The notes under the pieces are model-generated. The model was not told the origin of the DNA, did no database searches, and was given only the letters and a program-made list of their open reading frames with translations. The translations under genes and the position numbers were made by a program. From Deltaproteobacteria bacterium (lineage in GTDB: Bacteria; Desulfobacterota; Desulfobacteria; Desulfobacterales; Desulfosarcinaceae), in assembly GCA_020444075.1 (NCBI GenBank), contig JAHLLR010000055.1, positions 1-33,749 of the forward strand: a stretch of DNA of 33,749 nt, read 5' to 3'. Below, one piece after another: positions 14,279 to 27,495 of this stretch. Position 1 is the stretch's first letter, and each line of letters begins with the position of its first letter.

Positions 14279-14295
14279 TGTGGTAATTGACCACA
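14279..14295 (+). promoter_or_regulatory. Inverted repeat upstream of carA (candidate operator)
   Basis: TGTGGT-AATTG-ACCACA is a perfect 6-bp inverted repeat with a 5-nt spacer. It lies 52 nt before carA and just upstream of a weak -10-like TATAGG (14302-14307). A small GC stem (GCGCGG/CCGCGC, 14309-14330) follows in the presumed leader. It could bind a transcriptional regulator of pyrimidine/arginine synthesis. No regulator is identified. Confidence 0.4.
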
Positions 14296-14346
14296 GAACT
14301 TTATAGGTGCGCGGCAAACCAGACCCGCGCTACAAGACGGATATCA

Positions 14347-15483
14347 ATGGAAGCACGATTGACACTCGAAGACGGCCGCACCTTTGCCTGCCGGTCCTTT
14401 ACCGGTCCGGGGGAAGCCTGCGGCGAGGTGGTGTTCAACACCAGCATGACCGGCTACCAGGAGGTGCTCACCGACCCGTCCTACAGCGGCCAGATGGTCA
14501 CCATGACCTATCCGCTGATGGGCAACTACGGCGTCAACGACGACGATGTGGAATCCGCAAAGATCCAGGTGGCCGCTTTTCTGGTCAAAGAGTATCAGCC
14601 GTTTCCCAGCAACTTCAGATCCACCCGGTCGCTTGCCGACTACCTGGCCGGTCAGGGCGTGCTGGGTGTCGAAGGACTGGATACCCGGGCACTGACCCGC
14701 CACATCCGCAACGGCGGTGCCATGCGTGCCGTGATCTCCACCACGGATCTGGATCCCGAATCCCTGAAACGGCGGGCCAATGCCATTCCCCGCATGGTGG
14801 GCATGGACCTTGCCCGGGAGGTCTCCACCGCCAGGCCTTACCGCTGGAACGGCGGCAAGCCCGAATGGCTGGCGGATGATTTGCAATTGGATGCCGGTAT
14901 ATGGCGGCACCGGGGGGATCGCCCCTCGGTGGTGGCCATTGATTTCGGCCTCAAATACAACATTGCCCGCTGTCTGGAACGCGTGGGGTGCGAAGTCGTA
15001 ATCGTACCGGCGGCAACCGATGCATCGGCCATTATGGCCATGGTGCCCGACGGCCTCTTTCTCTCCAATGGCCCCGGCGACCCGGAGCCGGTCGTTTACG
15101 GCGTCCGGACGGTCAAAGAGCTGCTGGGCCGGCTGCCTATCTTCGGCATCTGTCTGGGCAACCAGATTCTGGGCCTGGCTCTGGGCGGGCGTACCTACAA
15201 ATTGAAATTCGGACACCGCGGCGCCAACCAGCCGGTCAAGAATCTGGTCACCGGCAAGGTGGAGATCACCTCCCAGAATCACGGATTCGCCGTGGATATG
15301 GACAGCCTGGGCGCAGATGCCGTCGAAGTTACCCATATCAACCTCAACGACAACACCGTGGAGGGTATCCGGCACCGCCGGCTGCCGGCCTTTTCAGTCC
15401 AATACCACCCGGAGGCATCTCCAGGGCCGCACGATGCGGCTTACCTGTTCGACCAGTTCAGGGACATGATGAAAACGAAATGA
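14347..15483 (+). CDS. carA: Carbamoyl-phosphate synthase small (glutaminase) subunit
   Basis: CarA hydrolyses glutamine and channels ammonia to CarB for carbamoyl phosphate, the precursor of pyrimidines and arginine. The 378-aa length is standard. The N-terminal domain has the usual [21 protein letters not shown]. The C-terminal class I amidotransferase has the nucleophile Cys269 in GICLGNQ and the His/Glu pair in [12 protein letters not shown]. Start at 14347 ([11 protein letters not shown]) matches the family N-terminus. The open frame to 14287 would read through the upstream inverted repeat and was rejected. The Shine-Dalgarno sequence is weak. The TGA stop is also the edge of a palindromic repeat, and carB starts 245 nt further on, an unusually wide gap for carAB. 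Confidence 0.97.
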
Positions 15484-15728: not shown

Positions 15729-18995
<3,267 letters not shown>

Positions 18996-19046
18996 CGGGC
19001 CACATCGGCCCCCCGTTCAACCTCCAGCCCTGCAAGGCGAAAGACC

Positions 19047-20486
19047 ATGAAACCATCACCGACCATGAGCCGGGAATTTATTGGCGATGACAAACCCCGC
19101 GAAGCCTGCGGCCTTTTCGGGGCGTTCAACCACCCGGATGCCGCGAAAATGTGTTATTTCGGGCTCTACGCCCTTCAGCACCGTGGACAGGAGAGCGCCG
19201 GTATCGCCGTCGCCGAGTCCGGCGCCATCGACGAGTACAAGGGGATGGGGCTGGTGCCCGACGTCTTCGATATGGACATTCTGGATGGCCTGAACGGCTC
19301 CAGCGCCATCGGACATGTGCGTTATTCCACCACCGGCAGCTCGGTGGTGGCCAATGCCCAACCTCTCGTGGCGCGCCATCGCCAGCGGGCCTATGCCGTG
19401 GCCCACAACGGCAACCTGGTCAATGCCCACCATTTGAAAGCGGAACTGGAAGATAGCGGTTCCATCTTTCAGACCACCATGGACAGCGAGGTGTTTCTGC
19501 ACCTTTTCGTCCGCAATCTCAACCTGGGCTTCGAAGAGGCGCTGAAAGCATCGGTGGCCCGACTGAAAGGGGCTTTTTCCATGGTGGTGCTCACCAGCCG
19601 GGGAGAACTTATCGGCATCAAAGACCCCCATGGCTTCCGCCCCCTGTGCCTGGGCAAACTCAACGGCACATGGGTGCTGGCATCGGAAACCTGCGCTTTG
19701 GATCTGGTTCAGGCGGAATTTGTCCGCGAGCTGGATCCGGGGGAGATTGTCATCATCAACAGCGAGGGGGTCAAAAGCATCCACACCAAAACCCCCAAAA
19801 TCCGGTCGTTCTGCATTTTCGAGTTCATCTACTTCGCCCGACCGGACAGCACCTTTTTCGGCCACAACGTCTACCTCACCCGCAAGGCCCACGGCCGGCG
19901 GCTGGCCGAAGAGTCTCCGGTGGAGGCGGACCTGGTCATGCCTTTTCCCGATTCGGGGACGTATTCGGCCCTCGGGTATTCGGAAGCGTCCGGCATCCCC
20001 TTCGAGACCGGTATGATCCGCAACCACTACGTGGGACGAACCTTTATCCAACCCACCCAGAGCATGCGGGATTTCGGGGTCCGGGTAAAACTCAATCCCA
20101 TCAAGGAACTGCTCAAAGGCAAGGACATTATCATCATCGAAGATTCGATTATCCGCGGCACGACGGTAAAAACACGCGTCAAGGCCCTTCGAGAGCTGGG
20201 GGTCAAACGGGTTCACCTGCGGGTGAGCGGACCGGCCCACCGATTTCCCTGCCATTACGGCATCGATTTTTCCACCAAAGGGGAACTGATTGCCGCCCGA
20301 ATGACCGTCGAGGAGCTCCGCAGCCACCTGGGCCTGGACTCCCTGTACTATCTCAGCCTGGAAGGGCTGCTCGCCTCAACCGGTATCGAAAACCCGGAGA
20401 ACCATTTCTGCAAAGCCTGCTTCGACGGGTGCTACCCGGTCCAGTTCGATGAAAATCTGTCCAAGCACTGCATGGAAATGAAATAA
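19047..20486 (+). CDS. purF: Amidophosphoribosyltransferase
   Basis: PurF transfers glutamine nitrogen to PRPP, giving 5-phosphoribosylamine, the first committed step of purine synthesis. The 479-aa chain starts with a 20-residue propeptide ending before Cys21 (EACGLFGAF), the Ntn nucleophile exposed after processing. The glutaminase domain shows ALQHRGQESAG, GHVRYSTTG and HNGNLVNA. The PRPP loop DIIIIEDSIIRGTT lies near 360-373. Cysteines at FCIFEF (~255), FPCHYG (~400) and HFCKACFDGC (~452-460) fit the [4Fe-4S] site of the B. subtilis-type enzyme, which would make it oxygen sensitive. The start at 19047 is chosen over the internal ATG at 19065 because AAGG lies 9 nt upstream. It follows carB by 51 nt without a terminator, so cotranscription is possible. 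Confidence 0.97.
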   Translation: MKPSPTMSREFIGDDKPREACGLFGAFNHPDAAKMCYFGLYALQHRGQESAGIAVAESGAIDEYKGMGLVPDVFDMDILDGLNGSSAIGHVRYSTTGSSVVANAQPLVARHRQRAYAVAHNGNLVNAHHLKAELEDSGSIFQTTMDSEVFLHLFVRNLNLGFEEALKASVARLKGAFSMVVLTSRGELIGIKDPHGFRPLCLGKLNGTWVLASETCALDLVQAEFVRELDPGEIVIINSEGVKSIHTKTPKIRSFCIFEFIYFARPDSTFFGHNVYLTRKAHGRRLAEESPVEADLVMPFPDSGTYSALGYSEASGIPFETGMIRNHYVGRTFIQPTQSMRDFGVRVKLNPIKELLKGKDIIIIEDSIIRGTTVKTRVKALRELGVKRVHLRVSGPAHRFPCHYGIDFSTKGELIAARMTVEELRSHLGLDSLYYLSLEGLLASTGIENPENHFCKACFDGCYPVQFDENLSKHCMEMK

Positions 20487-20534
20487 AGGTTTTTATCCGG
20501 CAAAAAAACATGTCCGTCATTTGAAATCTGGATG

Positions 20535-20604
20535 TTGACAGGCAGTCCCGGTTCCGTAGATGATGACCATGAAGCTTGCCTTTCTCGTGCCGTCACATTA
20601 GAAT
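20535..20604 (+). promoter_or_regulatory. Candidate promoters for the CNBD/radical-SAM pair
   Basis: Two sigma70-like sites lie in the gap after purF. TTGCCT (20576-20581) and TAGAAT (20599-20604) are exactly 17 nt apart and form the better pair. TTGACA (20535-20540), a perfect -35, is followed after 16 nt by a weak TAGATG. Either would free the two downstream genes from purF control. Confidence 0.5.
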
Positions 20605-20651
20605 ACGTTGCATCGGATCATCAACGATTCACTATCGCCCAGGGGGATTTC

Positions 20652-21218
20652 ATGATCGAGTCCAAATACCTGAAGGAAAATATCGAGAATATCCAGCGGC
20701 TCATGTCCATCTCCGCGCTGAAGCATTTCGAGACCCGCAACCTGGGCAAGCTGCTTCGCCTCAGCAAAATCCGCCAGTACGAAGATGGCGAGACCATTAT
20801 CCAGGAAGGCGATATGGATCCCTGGCTCTACTTTCTGCTGTCCGGCAAAATCCGGATTACCAAAGAAGGCGAAGAGATCAGCACCATCAGTAAAAAAGGG
20901 GAAATTTTCGGAGAAATGCGCATCATCGACGACCAGACGCGCAGCGCCACGGTGCTGTCCGATGGGAAGACCATCTGCCTGGCCGTGGACACCTCGGCCG
21001 GCAACCGGCTCTCCACGTCCGAGCAAAAGGACGAGCGTCTGGACTTTTTGCTTCTGCTCTACCGGATTTTCGCCGAATATATGACCTACCGCCTGCGTCT
21101 CACCAACGAAGAACTGATCCGTGCCAAAAAAGAGGTGCGCCGCCTGGGTGGTGCAGCCAGTCCAAACGCGGATGCGGACGACGATGCCGACCTGGAAAAT
21201 TTCATGAAATCGATGTAG
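20652..21218 (+). CDS. Stand-alone cyclic-nucleotide-binding (CRP-like) domain protein
   Basis: A 188-aa soluble protein with one cNMP-binding beta-roll (about 20-115). Visible features are the turn YEDGETIIQEGDMDPWLYFLLSGKIRI and a phosphate-binding-cassette-like FGEMRIIDDQTRSATVLS, where E88 and R97 occupy the ligand-contacting positions of CRP-family cassettes. A helical segment follows, with an acidic tail (DADDDADLENF). There is no helix-turn-helix, kinase or transporter domain, so it is not a classical Crp/Fnr regulator. It may be a small sensor or adaptor. The start at 20652 has AGGGGG 5 nt upstream. The longer frame from 20532 lacks a ribosome-binding site and covers the promoter. Fifteen nt separate it from the radical SAM gene, implying joint expression. 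Confidence 0.85.
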   Translation: MIESKYLKENIENIQRLMSISALKHFETRNLGKLLRLSKIRQYEDGETIIQEGDMDPWLYFLLSGKIRITKEGEEISTISKKGEIFGEMRIIDDQTRSATVLSDGKTICLAVDTSAGNRLSTSEQKDERLDFLLLLYRIFAEYMTYRLRLTNEELIRAKKEVRRLGGAASPNADADDDADLENFMKSM

Positions 21219-21233
21219 GGTGGGAATGACCCT

Positions 21234-22238
21234 ATGCGCAAAACCGTTTCATTCACCCGTCGTTCGGCCAACATCTTTTTCCATCTCCTCACCCGGTGCA
21301 ATCTTCGCTGCCGCCATTGCTACATCAACCCCGATCAGCATGGCCGGAATACGCTCGACATCGATACCATCGGCCGGTGGCTGGCCCTTTTTGCCCATCG
21401 GCATCCATCGTCCAACGTGATCTTTCTGGGCGGCGAACCCACCCTGCACCCTGATCTTTCCGTTGCCGTCAAGCAGTCCAGACAGCTGGGCTACGCCTCG
21501 GTGACCATCGACACCAACGGCTACCTTTTTCACGACATCCTGAACCGGGTGACGCCCGACGAGGTGGATTACTTCAGCTTCAGCCTGGACGGTCCCGACC
21601 CGTCGGTCAACGATCCCCTGCGCGGCGACGGCAGTTTCAAGCAGTGCACCCAGGGCATTGCGGCAGCCAAAAAGTGTGGTTTTGCCGTCAGCCTCATCTA
21701 TACGGTGAGCCGGGCCAATATCGACCATCTGCAGCGGATGCCGCCCCTGCTGGCGGAACTGGGTGTGGACCGCTTCTTCATCCAGGTCATCGGGGTGCGG
21801 GGGCAGTGGGCTGGCGATGCCCAGCAGGTGGAAGCCCTTTCCCAGGTGGACCGGGACACCTGGCTGGCGGTGATCCCGCCGATGGCCGAAGCCGCCGCCC
21901 GCCGGGGAATCACCGTTACCTTCCCCAAGGTGTTCCTGGATCCTGACGAGCCCTTCGAATGCGCGGGGCTGGTGGCGGACAACTACTTCATCTTTCCCAA
22001 CGGCCGGGTCTACCGGTGCCCCCTGTGCGAGGATTACCCGCTGCACAGCCTGGAAGTCCGCGACGACCGCCTGGTGGAGACCGCCAAAATCAACGAGTCG
22101 GACCTGTTCCCCCTGCTCATCGCCGAGGGATGCGTCATGAACCGCATCATCCAGCCGCGCAACCTTCCCCCTGCCGGTGGAGGCAAACTGCCTTTTAAAA
22201 TTGCCTGCTGTATGCTCAAGGAAGAGATCGCCCCGTAG
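21234..22238 (+). CDS. Radical SAM protein with SPASM-like C-terminal cysteines
   Basis: A 334-aa radical SAM enzyme. The cluster motif is C22-x3-C26-x2-C29 (RCNLRCRHCY), followed by the SAM-binding GGEPT. Near the C-terminus, FECAGLVADNYFIFPNGRVYRCPLC fits the start of a SPASM motif: C-x13-G-x4-C, then x2-C. More cysteines lie further on (EGCVMN, ACCML). SPASM proteins use auxiliary Fe-S clusters for peptide or protein modification, or for cofactor synthesis. I saw no obvious short precursor-peptide gene beside it, and no maturase family is recognised. The Shine-Dalgarno sequence is poor, so translation may depend on the gene 15 nt upstream. The substrate is unknown. Confidence 0.88.
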   Translation: MRKTVSFTRRSANIFFHLLTRCNLRCRHCYINPDQHGRNTLDIDTIGRWLALFAHRHPSSNVIFLGGEPTLHPDLSVAVKQSRQLGYASVTIDTNGYLFHDILNRVTPDEVDYFSFSLDGPDPSVNDPLRGDGSFKQCTQGIAAAKKCGFAVSLIYTVSRANIDHLQRMPPLLAELGVDRFFIQVIGVRGQWAGDAQQVEALSQVDRDTWLAVIPPMAEAAARRGITVTFPKVFLDPDEPFECAGLVADNYFIFPNGRVYRCPLCEDYPLHSLEVRDDRLVETAKINESDLFPLLIAEGCVMNRIIQPRNLPPAGGGKLPFKIACCMLKEEIAP

Positions 22239-22299
22239 TTTCTGAAGCCCTCCGACGATTGCCAGGCTGTGGATGAGAGACTGGCCGAAACCCTGGCGT

Positions 22300-22812
22300 T
22301 CAGGTTACCGCCCAAATAAATGATCTTTCCATTCCCTGCCGAAGTGCCTTGATTTGCCGAAGGGACGTCTGGATGACCTGCATCTCCGCCGGCTCTTTTC
22401 GCAGGCGTTGGGTCTGTGCCGGGCACAGGTACCAGGTGCAGACAAAGGGGCGCCGGATCCTTTCCAGCCGGCAGCCGGCGGGGCCTTCGTAACGGCAGTG
22501 GCCTCCCTGTGGGTCCAGCAGCTGCCGACCGGGCGCCGGGATGCCGGCCAGGTGCAGGAAGAGCAGGTCCTTGAAATCGGCCCACACCCATGCCCGCTGG
22601 CAGCAGGCGTCCGTGCAGTCGGGACAGGTCCTCCGGCACAAGCGGTCCATGTGGGGAAAGGTCGATTCAAGAAGGCGCTTGATCTGGCGGGCCTGCCGGC
22701 GGGACTCAGCGATCCCCGGCCGGTTCTGCCGCACGGTGGTCGCCAGGGAGGTGTTGGCCTCCCGCCAGAGGGCACGCGTATTCCAGGGAACCGATGAACG
22801 ATGGTCATCCAT
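22300..22812 (-). CDS. Cysteine-rich protein of unknown function
   Basis: A 170-aa soluble protein with nine cysteines in two groups: C59, C63, C66, C70, C71 (CRRTCPDCTDACCQ) and C106, C114, C125, C130 (HCRYEGPAGC, FVCTWYLC). The C-terminal CxxxxC with surrounding aromatic residues loosely resembles the YkgJ-type Fe/Zn-binding CxxCC proteins, but I cannot assign it firmly. No signal peptide or membrane helix is seen. The N-terminal half is helical and Arg-rich. It is convergent with the radical SAM gene and divergent from the YchF-like gene. The ATG at 22812 has no clear Shine-Dalgarno sequence. Cysteine conservation and reading-frame length argue that it is real. Confidence 0.7.
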   Translation of the reverse strand: MDDHRSSVPWNTRALWREANTSLATTVRQNRPGIAESRRQARQIKRLLESTFPHMDRLCRRTCPDCTDACCQRAWVWADFKDLLFLHLAGIPAPGRQLLDPQGGHCRYEGPAGCRLERIRRPFVCTWYLCPAQTQRLRKEPAEMQVIQTSLRQIKALRQGMERSFIWAVT

Positions 22813-22865
22813 TGCCGATTCATAACCCTTTTACCATGGTTTTTCAAATCCCCGGCCTTTTTTGT

Positions 22866-22894
22866 TTGCCTTGACGCATGTACCCGGATATGAG
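22866..22894 (+). promoter_or_regulatory. Weak candidate promoter for the YchF-like gene
   Basis: TTGCCT (22866-22871) and TATGAG (22889-22894) are 17 nt apart in the divergent gap, 47 nt before the YchF-like ATG. Each hexamer matches consensus at four of six positions. Confidence 0.3.
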
Positions 22895-22941
22895 AAGGCC
22901 AAACCGATTTGCAAATTGAATGAAATCGCAGGAGCAAGCAT

Positions 22942-23976
22942 ATGAGACTCGGCATCATCGGCCTCCCCCAGTCGGGCAAAACGACTGTTTTCGAAGCCTT
23001 GACCCGCAGCGTCGCCGCCGACGGCAACCGCCAGGAAAGCCGTATCGGCACGATCACGGTCCCGGACAAGCGGGTGGAGATCCTCAGCGAGATGTACCAT
23101 CCCCGTAAAACCATCTTTACCCAGGTGGAGTATTTTCTGCCCGGCAAGGGGGATCACGGCGGAGCCGCCAAGAAGGATCAGAGCATCTGGACCCAGGTGA
23201 GGGATTGCGACGCCCTGATACACGCGGTGCGCCATTTCAGCGGCTACGGATTCGGTGCGCCCACGCCCAGGGAAGATGTGGCCGCCATCGATCAGGAATT
23301 GATCATATCCGATTTGGTCGTGGTCGAAAAACGGCTGGAACGACTGGCCCTGGACGAACGCAGGGGCAAAAAACCCAGTCCCGAGGAGATCGCCCTGCTG
23401 GAGCGCTGCAAGGAACATCTGGACAACGAAACACCCCTTCGCCGGTTCCCCGATATCACCACGGCCAAACTGCTGCGCGGATTCGCCTTTCTCTCCGCCA
23501 AACCCATGCTTATCCTCTTCAACAACGAGGACGAGGACGATGCCCTGCCCGATGCCGCATCACTGCCCGACGGGGAGGAATGCATGGTGATCCGGGCCAA
23601 GCTGGAGCAGGAACTGGCCCAGATGTCCGACGAGGATGCCCGGGAGTTTCTGGCCGAGTTCAACATCACCGCGTCGGCCACGGACCGGGTCATTCAGCGT
23701 TCCTACGACCTGATGGGCCTGATCTCTTTTTTCACCGTGGGCGAAGACGAAGTGCGGGCCTGGACCATCGGCCGGGATACCGAGGCCGTGGATGCGGCCG
23801 AGGTGATTCATTCGGACATTAAAAAAGGGTTCATCCGGGCCGAGGTGCTGGCCTACGATGACCTCATGGAGGCAGGAACCTATGCCGAGGCCCGCAAAAA
23901 AGGCACGGTACGGCTGGAGGGCAAGACCTACAGGGTCTGCGACGGGGACATCATCAACTTCCGCTTCAACGTATGA
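22942..23976 (+). CDS. YchF/OLA1-like P-loop NTPase with TGS domain
   Basis: A 344-aa member of the Obg/YchF group. The P-loop is GLPQSGKTT (7-15). The C-terminus closely follows YchF: VIQRSYDLMGLISFFTVGEDEVRAWTI, IHSDIKKGFIRAEV and the TGS end DGDIINFRFNV. The base-recognition loop is LFNNED, resembling the NxxE/NxxD of YchF, so ATP may be preferred over GTP. The usual switch II sequence (VDIAGLV-GAS) is replaced by VEYFLPGKGDHGG, losing the standard DxxG. It is therefore a diverged paralogue rather than clear housekeeping YchF (about 363 aa). AGGAG lies 7 nt upstream of the ATG. It is followed after 50 nt by the KamA-like gene on the same strand. Confidence 0.88.
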   Translation: MRLGIIGLPQSGKTTVFEALTRSVAADGNRQESRIGTITVPDKRVEILSEMYHPRKTIFTQVEYFLPGKGDHGGAAKKDQSIWTQVRDCDALIHAVRHFSGYGFGAPTPREDVAAIDQELIISDLVVVEKRLERLALDERRGKKPSPEEIALLERCKEHLDNETPLRRFPDITTAKLLRGFAFLSAKPMLILFNNEDEDDALPDAASLPDGEECMVIRAKLEQELAQMSDEDAREFLAEFNITASATDRVIQRSYDLMGLISFFTVGEDEVRAWTIGRDTEAVDAAEVIHSDIKKGFIRAEVLAYDDLMEAGTYAEARKKGTVRLEGKTYRVCDGDIINFRFNV

Positions 23977-24026
23977 CGGCGCAGTAAATCGTCTACAAAT
24001 CGGCCTTTTTGCGAGTCCATCGAACC

Positions 24027-25082
24027 ATGACCGACCAGATATTCCCGTCGGAACCCCGCTGGAAAGCGTTGCTGGCAGCCTGTGTCACCGACCCGAAGCA
24101 GGTGGCCGAAAGGTTCGACGTCGATCCGGACCGGCTGGCGGCGGCCATCCGCCGCTTTCCAATGCGGATCAATCCCTATTACCTGTCGTTAATCCGTTGG
24201 CCGGGCGATCCCATCTGGCGGCAGGCCGTGCCTGATCCGGCCGAACTGACCGATGCGGCCGGTACCGCCGAGCCCCTGTGCGAGGAGGAACAATCACCGG
24301 TTCCCGGTCTGATTCACCGCTATCCGGACCGGGTGGTCCTGCTGGCCGCGGATCAGTGCGCCATGTTCTGCCGCTTCTGCATGCGCAAACGCCGGGTGGG
24401 CAAGGTGGCGGCCGAGGAGGAGCGGATTGCCGCCGGGGTCGACTACGTCCGCAGCACCCAAGCGGTGCACGAGGTGATCCTTTCCGGCGGGGACCCGCTG
24501 ATGCTGGATGATTCCCGACTGGCCCGTTTGCTGGAAGCGATCCGCGCAATCGATCATGTGCGCCTCGTCCGCATTCACTCGCGCATGCCCTGTACACTGC
24601 CCCAGCGCATCACCGACGATCTGGTGCGGATGCTGCGGGTGTTTCAGCCGCTATACCTCATAACCCATTTCAACCACCCCGACGAAATCACCGACCGATC
24701 GCGGGAGGCCTGCGCCCGCCTGGCCGATGCCGGCATTCCGCTGGGCTGCCAGACGGTGCTGCTCAAGGGCGTCAACGACGATCCCGCCGTCATGCACCAC
24801 CTGATGGAGATGTTGCTGGTCATGCGCGTGCGGCCCTATTACCTGCACCAGCTGGATCGCGTGCACGGCACGGTCCACTTCCGGGTGCCGCTGGAAAAGG
24901 GGCTTTCCATCATGCGGCACCTGCGTGGCCGCCTCAGCGGCATGGGCGTGCCCCACTACATGGTCGACCTGCCCGGAGGCGGCGGCAAGGTGCCCCTGAC
25001 GCCCGACTATGTGGTAAGCAGGGACCGGTCGGTGTGGAGGTTGAGAAACGGCGAAGGCCGGGTGTTCAGCTATCCGGTGTAG
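24027..25082 (+). CDS. KamA-family radical SAM aminomutase (lysine 2,3-aminomutase / EpmB-like)
   Basis: A 351-aa PLP-dependent radical SAM protein. The cluster cysteines are C111, C115 and C118 (CAMFCRFCMR), and PLP-binding K321 lies in DLPGGGGKVP. Compared from memory with clostridial lysine 2,3-aminomutase (Arg134, Asp293, Asp330, Lys337), the corresponding R120, D277, D314 and K321 are all present with the same spacing. That favours a lysine-type substrate over glutamate. The chain ends about where the zinc-binding C-terminal extension of classical KamA (about 416 aa) would begin. Its length is thus like EpmB (342 aa), which modifies elongation factor P. No EpmA or acetyltransferase partner is adjacent. 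The ATG at 24027 is chosen over TTG at 24009; the Shine-Dalgarno sequence is weak for both. After the stop only a 6-bp stem without a T-tract is seen (25097-25117). Confidence 0.88.
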   Translation: MTDQIFPSEPRWKALLAACVTDPKQVAERFDVDPDRLAAAIRRFPMRINPYYLSLIRWPGDPIWRQAVPDPAELTDAAGTAEPLCEEEQSPVPGLIHRYPDRVVLLAADQCAMFCRFCMRKRRVGKVAAEEERIAAGVDYVRSTQAVHEVILSGGDPLMLDDSRLARLLEAIRAIDHVRLVRIHSRMPCTLPQRITDDLVRMLRVFQPLYLITHFNHPDEITDRSREACARLADAGIPLGCQTVLLKGVNDDPAVMHHLMEMLLVMRVRPYYLHQLDRVHGTVHFRVPLEKGLSIMRHLRGRLSGMGVPHYMVDLPGGGGKVPLTPDYVVSRDRSVWRLRNGEGRVFSYPV

Positions 25083-25175: not shown

Positions 25176-26222
25176 TCAGAACCAGGAGCGGTGGCTCCAG
25201 ATATCCTCCTCCAGGCTTTTCTTGTCCTCCTGAAGCTTCAGGAACATGGAGGCGTTCTGGATGGCCAGGCCGCCCTGGTGGGCCAGGGCCTCCACCATCA
25301 CCATGAGGTCGGACGGAAATTCCCGCTGGACGCCGCTGTACAGACGCATGACCCCGATCACCTTGTCCCGGGCCAGGATGGGAGTGACGATCATGGAAAC
25401 GATGCCTTCGGCTTTCATGGCGTCCTTGAAGCGAATGCGTTCGTCGGTAGTGGCGTCGCTGATGACGATCGTTTCTCCCTTCAGGGCACGGGCCGCGGTT
25501 TCCGTGGTGATGATGGCCCCTTTTTCGAGGAATTCATCGCTGAGCCCATGACTGGCCACCAGCTTCAGTGAACCGGTGTCCTCATCCAGCAGGCGGATGA
25601 GCGCCCCCTTCATTCCCAGGGTGTCGCAGATATTTTCGGTCAGGTTGCCGAGTACCTGGCGGATGTCCAGCGAGGAGTTGATGGTGGAGGCCAGTTCCAG
25701 AAACAGCATGGCGTTTTTTTGCATGCGCCGCAGCAGCCGGTTGTGCTCGATGGCGATGCCTCCCTGATCGGCAAGGGCACATAAAAATTCGATTTCCTTC
25801 GGCTGAAAATCGCGTGCTGTGGCCGTGTAGAGTGACAACACGCCGATAATCCGGTTTTTGACCTTCACCGGTACGGTGAGCAGCGAGGCGATCCCCTCGG
25901 CTTTTTTGGCCGCATGGTTTTCCAGGCGCGGGTCGCTGGTGGCATCCGGAAATGCCACGTAGCCCGCTTTCTCCAAAACGGTAAAAATTTTTCGGGCCTT
26001 CAGCGGATTGGCGTGCAGGTAGCTGTCCGACAACCCGGTCTGGGCCGTGGGGACGAATAGATCCTGCCGTTCATCTGCCAGAAACAGGCAGGCGGCTTTG
26101 CCCTCCATGGAGTCCACCGCGCTTTCCACGATCAGGCGCAACAACTCATTTTTCGTTGCCGTGGTGCCGAAAGCCTCGCTGATCCTGCAAAAGGTTTTGA
26201 AATAGTCCATCTTTCCAGTCAT
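25176..26222 (-). CDS. Tandem GAF-domain protein
   Basis: A 348-aa cytoplasmic protein made of two GAF domains (about 20-165 and 185-335). Repeated GAF hallmarks are seen: SLLTVPVKVKNRIIGVLSLYT and SMIVTPILARDKVIGVMRLYS, each followed by a helix with LADQGGIAIEHN or LAHQGGLAIQNA. No kinase, GGDEF, HD or DNA-binding domain is attached, so it may be a sensor subunit or adaptor. The ATG at 26222 has AGGAGG 6 nt upstream. The longer frame to 26261 would overlap phaC and lacks that site. It is the last gene of the minus-strand PHA operon, 31 nt after phaC, which suggests a role in sensing carbon or redox state for storage (inference). Confidence 0.88.
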   Translation of the reverse strand: MTGKMDYFKTFCRISEAFGTTATKNELLRLIVESAVDSMEGKAACLFLADERQDLFVPTAQTGLSDSYLHANPLKARKIFTVLEKAGYVAFPDATSDPRLENHAAKKAEGIASLLTVPVKVKNRIIGVLSLYTATARDFQPKEIEFLCALADQGGIAIEHNRLLRRMQKNAMLFLELASTINSSLDIRQVLGNLTENICDTLGMKGALIRLLDEDTGSLKLVASHGLSDEFLEKGAIITTETAARALKGETIVISDATTDERIRFKDAMKAEGIVSMIVTPILARDKVIGVMRLYSGVQREFPSDLMVMVEALAHQGGLAIQNASMFLKLQEDKKSLEEDIWSHRSWF

Positions 26223-26253
26223 AGGCTGCCTCCTCGTGGACGATCTGTCCGCA

Positions 26254-27495
26254 CTACCCATTCGTCTTTCTCGTTACGGTTCCGGACACGGATGATTCTG
26301 GTTTGGCACCCGCAGGGGTGTTTTTTTTCACGGGTTTGGTTTTTTGCACGGTTTTTTTCAATCCGGCGGACGGCGGGGCCGCCTTGGTTTTCTTGCGGGG
26401 AGATTGTTTTTTTGGAATCTGATCTCTCTCTTTCAGCCAGCCGGCGATCTTGGGTGCGAACTCCCGCTGGTACTTCGAACTGACATAGATCCCGATGTGC
26501 CCGGTGTCCAGGCAGATGTCTTCGGTGTCCGCGCTGCCCACGTGACGGGTCAATTGCTCGCAGGCTTCAGGCGGCACCAGGTGGTCGAACCTGCCGTAGA
26601 TGTTGAGCAGGGGCATGGTGAGCTTCTTCAAATCCACCCGCTGCCCGCCTACCTCCAGCTGATTCCGGATGAGCTTGTTCCCCTGATAGCAATCCTTGAT
26701 GAACTGGCGAAAGACTTCTCCGGGAAGGTCAGGGCTGTCAAATATCCATGTTTCCATTCGCAGAAAATTTTCAACGAAGGTCTTGTTGTCCATATTTTCC
26801 ATGAAACCCACGTATTTGTCGATCATCAGGCGGGCCGGGTTGAGCAGCAGAAACCCGAAGTTCATGATATCGGCCGAAAGGTTTCCATACGTGTCCACCA
26901 CCCGGTCCACGTCCAAGTGCTTCATCCAGACATGCAGCAGGCCCTTTCGGGTGTCGAAGGCGGTGGGGGTCACCGTGGTGACCAGGTTCTTGATCTTTTC
27001 CGGATGCAGGGCGGAATAGATTACGCTGAAAGTCCCCCCCATGCAGATGCCCATGAGGTTGACCTGCGCCACGCCGGTGCTTTTGCGAATGACGTCCACC
27101 ACGTTGTCCATGTATCCGTTGATGTGGTCGTCAAGCCCCTGGAAGCGGTCTTTGCGGGTGGGGTAGCCCCAGTCGATCATGTACAGGTCGATGCCTGCTT
27201 CCAGAAACCGCTCCACCACGCTTCTTCCGGGCTGCAGGTCCAGCATGGTCTCCCGGTTGATCAGCGCATAAACGACCAGCAGCGGGGTTTTATAGCGGAT
27301 GCCGTTTTCGGGCCGGTAGTGTTTGAGGGTGACCCGATCCTCCCGGTACACAATGTCGTAGGGTGTCTGGGCCAGTTTTGCATCGAGGTCGGACAGGAGC
27401 ACTTCCGAGGCTTTCTTCGCCCGGTTTTGCACCCGTTCGGCATCTTCGGCCAGTTTGGATACGATCAGATCCACAGGGATTTTGAATTGAGTCAT
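26254..27495 (-). CDS. phaC: Class III polyhydroxyalkanoate synthase, PhaC subunit
   Basis: PhaC polymerises 3-hydroxyacyl-CoA into polyhydroxyalkanoate at the granule surface, in complex with PhaE. The catalytic triad is clear: Cys151 in the lipase-like box GICMGG, Asp304 in GRFDHLVPP and His333 in DTGHIGIYVSS. From memory the Allochromatium class III triad is C149/D302/H331, an offset of two residues throughout. At 413 aa it is longer than the usual ~355. The extra ~50 C-terminal residues are rich in Lys, Pro, Ala and Thr (KKQSPRKKTKAAPP, KPVKKNTPAGAK) and resemble the basic tails of DNA- or granule-binding proteins. GGAGG lies just before the ATG and overlaps a small hairpin. phaE ends 49 nt upstream. 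Confidence 0.95.
   Translation of the reverse strand: MTQFKIPVDLIVSKLAEDAERVQNRAKKASEVLLSDLDAKLAQTPYDIVYREDRVTLKHYRPENGIRYKTPLLVVYALINRETMLDLQPGRSVVERFLEAGIDLYMIDWGYPTRKDRFQGLDDHINGYMDNVVDVIRKSTGVAQVNLMGICMGGTFSVIYSALHPEKIKNLVTTVTPTAFDTRKGLLHVWMKHLDVDRVVDTYGNLSADIMNFGFLLLNPARLMIDKYVGFMENMDNKTFVENFLRMETWIFDSPDLPGEVFRQFIKDCYQGNKLIRNQLEVGGQRVDLKKLTMPLLNIYGRFDHLVPPEACEQLTRHVGSADTEDICLDTGHIGIYVSSKYQREFAPKIAGWLKERDQIPKKQSPRKKTKAAPPSAGLKKTVQKTKPVKKNTPAGAKPESSVSGTVTRKTNG

Follow-up and report, generated by a model that had tools for sequence, protein, structure and literature searches.

Across genomes, the radical-SAM protein encoded in this window (the whole 33,749-nucleotide stretch of DNA that was analyzed) tracks a TadA-like deaminase more closely than it tracks the cyclic-nucleotide-binding protein whose gene precedes its own. 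The reading toward which we lean is that the radical-SAM protein and the deaminase probably form a two-enzyme pathway that modifies a nucleoside or nucleotide, and that the cyclic-nucleotide-binding protein would be a separate sensor of cAMP or cGMP sharing the operon. Hereafter, CNBD denotes the stand-alone cyclic-nucleotide-binding protein or its gene, RSAM the radical-SAM protein or its gene, and cNMP either cAMP or cGMP.

The gene run carA-carB-purF-CNBD-RSAM lies on the + strand throughout and is closed by CNBD and RSAM. Its features, and the convergent gene that follows, are:

14287-15483, + strand: carA, carbamoyl-phosphate synthase small subunit (TIGR01368, 505 bits, cut-off 307)
15729-18995, + strand: carB, carbamoyl-phosphate synthase large subunit (TIGR01369, 1517 bits, cut-off 1027)
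19047-20486, + strand: purF, amidophosphoribosyltransferase (TIGR01134, 495 bits, cut-off 350)
20576-20604, + strand: candidate sigma-70-like promoter before CNBD, TTGCCT-17-TAGAAT (pattern scan)
20652-21218, + strand: CNBD, 188 aa (PF00027; predicted structure; fold match 3gyd)
21234-22238, + strand: RSAM, Twitch-like, 334 aa (PF04055; cysteine conservation; Foldseek; motif counts)
22300-22812, − strand: cysteine-rich protein, 170 aa (cluster c9), convergent to RSAM

The first-pass annotation had described CNBD and RSAM as two genes 15 nt apart behind a promoter of their own. The spacing was confirmed and the description of the pair stood, but carA-carB-purF upstream of it had gone unmentioned. 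carA is the first gene of a conserved run and lies upstream of carB in many relatives; the complete order of five genes also recurs in many relatives, with purF a frequent upstream neighbor of CNBD, RSAM, or both. The closest named relatives were Desulfosarcina. A separate promoter is plausible: a pattern scan of both strands over 18900-22960 gave 4 sigma-70-like matches vs 1.3 expected, two of them between purF and CNBD (at 20535 and 20576), and the 20576-20604 candidate was judged by eye to be retained in five of six aligned relatives and absent from the sixth. RNA families had 0 matches within the window.

Beyond this run, the window encodes a YchF-like GTPase (22942-23976, + strand; 226 bits vs a YchF equivalog cut-off of 279), the gene for which is often close to RSAM or CNBD in relatives. 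It is followed by a lysine-2,3-aminomutase-like radical-SAM gene (24009-25082, + strand), the product of which scored 289 bits, above the KamA subfamily cut-off of 199 and below the cut-offs of the AblA, glutamate, arginine, and EpmB families. PhaC, the class III PHA synthase subunit, is encoded at 26254-27495 on the − strand (428 bits vs a cut-off of 365), and a two-GAF-domain protein (25176-26261) comes after the PhaC gene.

The cysteine-rich protein at 22300-22812 is convergent to RSAM in Desulfosarcina-like genomes, and its cluster was present in 6 named loci; RSAM could not be placed in 8 of the 103 loci used for neighbor clustering. It matched no Pfam family at E 0.1 or better and no NCBIfam family at E 1 or better. 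Its resemblance to c25, a cysteine-rich protein encoded upstream of the deaminase-RSAM pair elsewhere, is weak (hhalign E 0.012, probability only 3.5%), and although the cysteine patterns are similar, we did not accept the two clusters as one family on so unconvincing an alignment; its membership in the system is uncertain.

RSAM is a member of the radical SAM superfamily (PF04055, 83.1 bits, cut-off 29.5) and barely exceeds the cut-off for PF13353 (23.5 bits vs 22). The cysteine motifs reported in the first pass, C22/C26/C29 and C243-x13-G257-x4-C262-x2-C265, are present as claimed. When the window protein was aligned with 79 named relatives, C22, C26, C243, C262, C265, C300, C325, and C326 were invariant and C29 was a cysteine in 79 of the 80 sequences; six of these nine near-invariant cysteines are C-terminal, beyond CX3CX2C. 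In a set of 102 RSAM sequences, the CX3CX2C cluster motif occurred in 101, CX13GX4CX2C in 100, and a C-terminal CC in all 102. The label SPASM-like was not borne out. In PMC6231123, a SPASM domain is defined by the seven-cysteine motif CX9-15GX4C-gap-CX2CX5CX3C-gap-C; the first block is present in RSAM, but the second, CX2CX5CX3C, was found in 0 of the 102 sequences, and placement in the SPASM subfamily was rejected. PMC10452713 and PMC6231123 define Twitch as a truncated SPASM domain in which 3-4 cysteines bind one auxiliary cluster, and relative to that wording RSAM has six conserved C-terminal cysteines, not 3-4. Judged by its motifs, RSAM may be termed Twitch-like; it is not SPASM.

It had been allowed that RSAM might fall in a characterized family. 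This did not occur: among the best 25 of 75 NCBIfam matches, no cut-off was reached for any named equivalog (NirJ, AhbC, AhbD, MoaA, PqqE, mycofactocin maturase, and others), and the highest score among those 25, to NirJ, was 81.9 bits vs a cut-off of 515. Confidence in the predicted structure is modest (mean pLDDT 75.5), and pLDDT falls under 50 at residues 21-30 and in some stretches of the C-terminal domain. Among the Foldseek matches listed, the nearest solved folds were SkfB, at the top, and BlsE, PqqE, MoaA, SuiB, and viperin; E-values for SkfB, BlsE, PqqE, and MoaA were 3e-11 to 4e-10. RSAM shares with the Twitch/SPASM enzymes (SkfB, MoaA, BtrN, PqqE, BlsE) the CX3CX2C motif, the C-terminal CX13GX4C block, and further C-terminal cysteines; BtrN was taken as a comparator from PMC6231123 and is not among the Foldseek matches listed. 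RSAM differs from these enzymes in lacking an RRE as well as the CX2CX5CX3C block, and in having the extra invariant cysteines C265 and C300. Of its 334 residues, only about the first 12-20 precede the core, and no further N-terminal domain, RRE included, emerged from Pfam. In one genome (G284; L281:2519-4861, − strand), RSAM continues in frame, as a single 780-aa ORF, into a protein that we take to be glycerate-2-kinase-like; at L180, from the same family, a similar kinase-like gene is separate and comes after RSAM.

CNBD belongs to PF00027 (59.4 bits, cut-off 27.5), and no further Pfam family scored above its cut-off. It had been described as a sensor without a DNA-binding or enzymatic domain, and neither was found by Pfam or in the predicted structure. 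The phosphate-binding cassette FGEMRIIDDQTRSA does keep its Glu and Arg: E88 and R97 were invariant in 23 aligned CNBDs, including that of the window. The model (mean pLDDT 77.4) consists of a CNB beta-roll and a long C-terminal helix (residues 123-165), with no output domain. Among the 50 fold matches listed, the top TM-score (0.62) was to 3gyd, which ranked 20th by E-value; this stand-alone bacterial CNBD protein (Mfla_1926) shares the CNB beta-roll and the long helix at the C-terminus. Unlike 3gyd, whose title states no function, the window-type CNBD subfamily is often placed behind carAB-purF. The best NCBIfam match, TIGR03896 (bacteriocin-type transport-associated CNB protein; E 9e-11), reached only 41.6 bits vs a cut-off of 161. 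The genome of the window (G000) gave 17 class-III-cyclase-like matches and 18 of CNBD type, several of the latter in short stand-alone frames, so an extra stand-alone CNBD is not odd in it; these matches amount to a sizeable cyclic-nucleotide network.

The CNBD-RSAM pair was followed in named loci, which were the best 80 of 212 relatives, and in a sample of 291 genomes of the order. In 70 of the 80 named loci, the sequence extends 1,500 nt or more upstream of RSAM. Among these, 36 had purF and CNBD, 17 purF without CNBD, 7 CNBD without purF, and 10 neither (purF in 53 of 70). The gap between CNBD and RSAM in 43 named loci was zero or overlapping in 9, 1-60 nt in 25, and longer in 9, with a maximum of 186 nt. 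In the order sample, RSAM (counted at E<=1e-60) was found in 247 of 291 genomes and CNBD (E<=1e-20) in 173, or 167 once six weak ones were dropped. Both genes were placed in 98 listed genomes, these being the overlap of place lists giving at least 149 and at least 150 genomes, and in at least 88 they lay within 1 kb of each other. One of the 10 non-adjacent cases, G406, involves a contig break, and its two loci carry CNBD and RSAM pieces side by side.

Each gene was also found without the other: 94 of the 247 RSAM genomes had no CNBD, and 14 of the 167 CNBD genomes had no RSAM. A quick RSAM tree of 101 rows, with good support for 26 of its 97 inner branches, implied at least 17 changes in CNBD adjacency, a count that may be slightly too high because two loci whose contigs end just upstream of RSAM (L049, L110) were scored as without CNBD; on a tree built without the variable loop there were 16 changes. 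Association of CNBD with RSAM gave p=0.00024 over all 291 genomes, p=0.0068 in genomes at least 90% complete (n=210), p=0.16 in those at least 95% complete (77 both, 55 RSAM only, 5 CNBD only, 9 neither; n=146), and p=0.22 at 97% completeness. A stricter CNBD cut-off of 1e-60 moved 12 genomes and gave p=5.9e-5 overall and 0.26 at 95%. In the phylum sample, the close CNBD subfamily was present in just 4 of 37 RSAM genomes. With each gene found without the other and p=0.16 at 95% completeness, CNBD was rejected as an obligate partner of RSAM.

The surroundings of CNBD away from RSAM were then read. In seven RSAM-less genomes, CNBD came after purF in four (G024, G028, G327, G370) and faced ychF in three (G335, G338, G387). 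In three others RSAM was elsewhere in the genome and CNBD still followed purF (G415, G334, G350), and in five CNBD had different surroundings without purF (G495, G526, G545, G391, G546). For CNBD paralogues and relocated CNBDs, no neighbor was common to more than three loci (19 analyzed of 23). In family f3 (L222, L226, L227), the relocated CNBD comes after genes that we assume to be mtnA-like, to encode a regulator resembling siroheme decarboxylase, and to encode a radical-SAM protein of the B12 type. The first-pass annotation had been right that the pair is real, and it is widespread as a gene pair, but the sensor-enzyme system proposed from it was not supported, CNBD being absent from 94 of 247 RSAM genomes. 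Its fallback, neighbors with separate roles, fits better.

In other orders, the gene immediately upstream of RSAM often encodes a deaminase with HAE and PCxxC motifs. A profile (A3) built from eight of these deaminases was searched against the 297 phylum genomes that were also scanned for RSAM. At cut-offs of E<1e-100 for RSAM, which excludes a distant match in G157 (1.3e-43), and E<1e-50 for the deaminase, where the next match was G042 (1.3e-37), RSAM and the deaminase subfamily were each found in 37 of 297 genomes, and these were the same 37, with 0 discordant; seven of the 37 had supplied profile rows and the other 30 had not. Of the 24 such genomes that belong to other orders, 19 carry the deaminase gene within 1 kb upstream of RSAM and in the same orientation, and in 16 of these the matches are separated by no more than 72 nt; without the seven profile genomes the count is 12 of 17. 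These other lineages are perhaps Desulfobulbales. Inside the order, adjacency in the phylum sample was 0 of 13, and the two genes are usually apart there: among the places listed, linkage was seen in G334 (convergent) and G408, and at L046 a member of the deaminase cluster lies two genes downstream of RSAM on the opposite strand. The window's genome encodes its deaminase elsewhere, at G000:C26:57055-57549.

For the 291 genomes of the order, a deaminase cut-off of about 1e-35 was used, looser than the 1e-50 of the phylum; on the phylum sample it would make G042 (1.3e-37) a deaminase-only genome. Both genes were present in 227 genomes, RSAM only in 20, the deaminase only in 20, and neither in 24. 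In genomes at least 95% complete, the numbers in the same order were 129, 3, 4, and 10 (Fisher p=3e-10, n=146). At a deaminase cut-off of 1e-50, they were 225, 22, 19, and 25 overall and 128, 4, 4, and 10 in the more complete genomes (p=1e-9); these co-occurrence statistics ignore relatedness and are inflated by shared ancestry. At least four families (f1, f3, f9, f11) have members that lack RSAM and the deaminase alike, next to members that keep both.

The TadA model of NCBIfam was matched by all eight members of the deaminase profile, and the first member, at 73.9 bits vs a cut-off of 150, was not classed as TadA. HAE and PCxxC are kept in TadA (tRNA adenosine-34 deaminase) and the partner deaminase alike; the partner differs in its EDxMGG motif (invariant in the 8), its longer C-terminus, and, for the first member, a score of roughly 50% of what TadA requires. 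Motif and C-terminus together suggest a subfamily separate from TadA; a number of the genomes with the partner deaminase also have a second, weaker match, which is probably TadA proper. Solved relatives of the deaminase are tRNA-adenosine, guanosine, deoxycytidine, and cytosine deaminases. Nineteen of 20 deaminase loci, unlinked to RSAM or nearly so, were read. Seven of the 19 had infC-rplT-pheS-like genes downstream, presumably the translation genes infC, rplT, and pheS; upstream there was an HD-phosphohydrolase in 6 of 19 and a PF13588 protein in 6 of 19.

Two other readings give CNBD a larger part. It is rather improbable, in our judgment, that the two proteins are a dedicated signaling pair in which CNBD bound to cAMP or cGMP switches RSAM on or off by direct contact. 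Adjacency in at least 88 genomes (of 98 listed with both placed), gapless or overlapping genes in 9 of 43 named loci, the association over the 291 order genomes (p=0.00024, or 5.9e-5 at the stricter CNBD cut-off), and the candidate promoter before both genes, conserved in Desulfosarcina, all agree with such a pair. So does a weak co-variation of CNBD and RSAM distances in 30 loci with purF and carB removed (partial r=0.19, permutation p=0.037), and the idea is kept alive by the variable RSAM loop at 188-206, which in loci with an adjacent CNBD tends toward greater length (a raw trend, with about 4 usable pairs on a tree with few well-supported branches). It is opposed, however, by the genomes with one gene and not the other (94 of 247 and 14 of 167), by p=0.16 at 95% completeness (0.26 at the stricter cut-off), and by the CNBDs of two RSAM-less genera of the window's family (G024, G028), which are 80-81% identical to that of the window, RSAM-bearing loci of the family being 73-98% identical. 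In addition, the co-variation of CNBD is stronger with purF (partial r=0.34, p=0.001; carB, 0.07, p=0.32). This largest partial co-variation, the 17 class-III-cyclase-like matches in the genome, and the position of CNBD after purF in 7 of 15 RSAM-unlinked loci would instead suit a cNMP-responsive regulator of the carAB-purF operon or its enzymes, with RSAM incidental. We regard that reading as unlikely: 3 of the 15 loci are beside ychF and 5 elsewhere without purF, 17 of 53 named purF loci lack CNBD, and CNBD has no output domain.

The remaining alternatives concern RSAM. SkfB, PqqE, and SuiB are among its top Foldseek matches, and several peptide maturases are among the NCBIfam matches listed, all far below cut-off, yet a peptide (RiPP) maturase of the SkfB/PqqE/SuiB type is very improbable. 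The early start of the core leaves little room for an N-terminal RRE, the small conserved neighbor found among ORFs of at least 60 aa is a PF0610-like zinc protein (93 aa, 8 loci) that does not look like a precursor, and RSAM is closely paired with a nucleobase-type deaminase. That RSAM and the deaminase serve unrelated processes and were only co-retained in the same lineages seems to us distinctly unlikely. Both are near-universal in the order, where related genomes are not independent, and 7 genomes at 95% completeness are discordant; but this reading is opposed by the adjacency seen in 19 of the 24 genomes from other orders, by joint absence in several separate families, and by 0 discordant among 297 phylum genomes at the cut-offs used.

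In the two-enzyme pathway that we favor, RSAM would be the catalytic member and the TadA-like zinc deaminase, encoded elsewhere in G000, the other. The CX3CX2C cluster would cleave SAM to yield a 5'-deoxyadenosyl radical, and a Twitch-like auxiliary cluster, with ligands among C243, C262, C265, C300, C325, and C326, may bind or oxidize the substrate. This would be a nucleoside or nucleotide of purine or pyrimidine type, either free or within RNA, on which the deaminase would also work, before or after RSAM. CNBD would be a separate cAMP/cGMP-sensing adaptor, mostly encoded in the carAB-purF run, and its adjacency to RSAM would give co-expression in many genomes with no obligate complex. We counted for this pathway, beside the co-occurrence and adjacency of the two genes and their joint absence in parts of families, the RSAM fold neighbors with nucleotide substrates (BlsE, MoaA, viperin), the fold kin of the deaminase (tRNA-adenosine, guanosine, cytosine), purF or carB before RSAM in many loci, and the co-variation of RSAM distances with those of purF (partial r=0.41, p=0.0005, 30 loci). 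Counted against it were the discordant genomes (20 + 20 of 291; 7 of 146 at 95% completeness), the share of shared ancestry in the co-occurrence statistics, G042 at the looser deaminase cut-off, the usual separation of the genes in the order, the infC-rplT-pheS-like genes beside the deaminase in 7 of 19 loci, the peptide-modifying enzymes among the RSAM folds (SkfB at the top, PqqE, SuiB), the modest confidence of the RSAM model, and the association between CNBD and RSAM that emerges once incomplete genomes are counted (p=0.00024).

A companion from the kin of RNA-base-editing deaminases suggests a novel nucleoside modification. In open-license PMC full text, searched with all words required together, we found no description of an RSAM-deaminase or RSAM-CNBD pair. 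We tentatively propose, as a possibility at somewhat under even odds, an undescribed module in which the Twitch-like RSAM and the TadA-like deaminase together produce a novel modified nucleoside, either free or within tRNA, in the majority of members of the order and in certain other phylum lineages. Within one part of the order, expression of the module may be coupled to nucleotide synthesis, with the cNMP sensor of the same operon perhaps adjusting it. Gene neighborhood, here that of CNBD and RSAM, and co-occurrence across genomes can point in different directions. RSAM, uncharacterized yet present in 247 of the 291 genomes sampled from the order, gains a testable partner in a deaminase with a nucleobase-editing fold, and what had been a radical SAM protein without annotation becomes part of a candidate pathway, most likely for a new nucleoside modification or a nucleotide-derived cofactor, in Desulfosarcina-related anaerobes.
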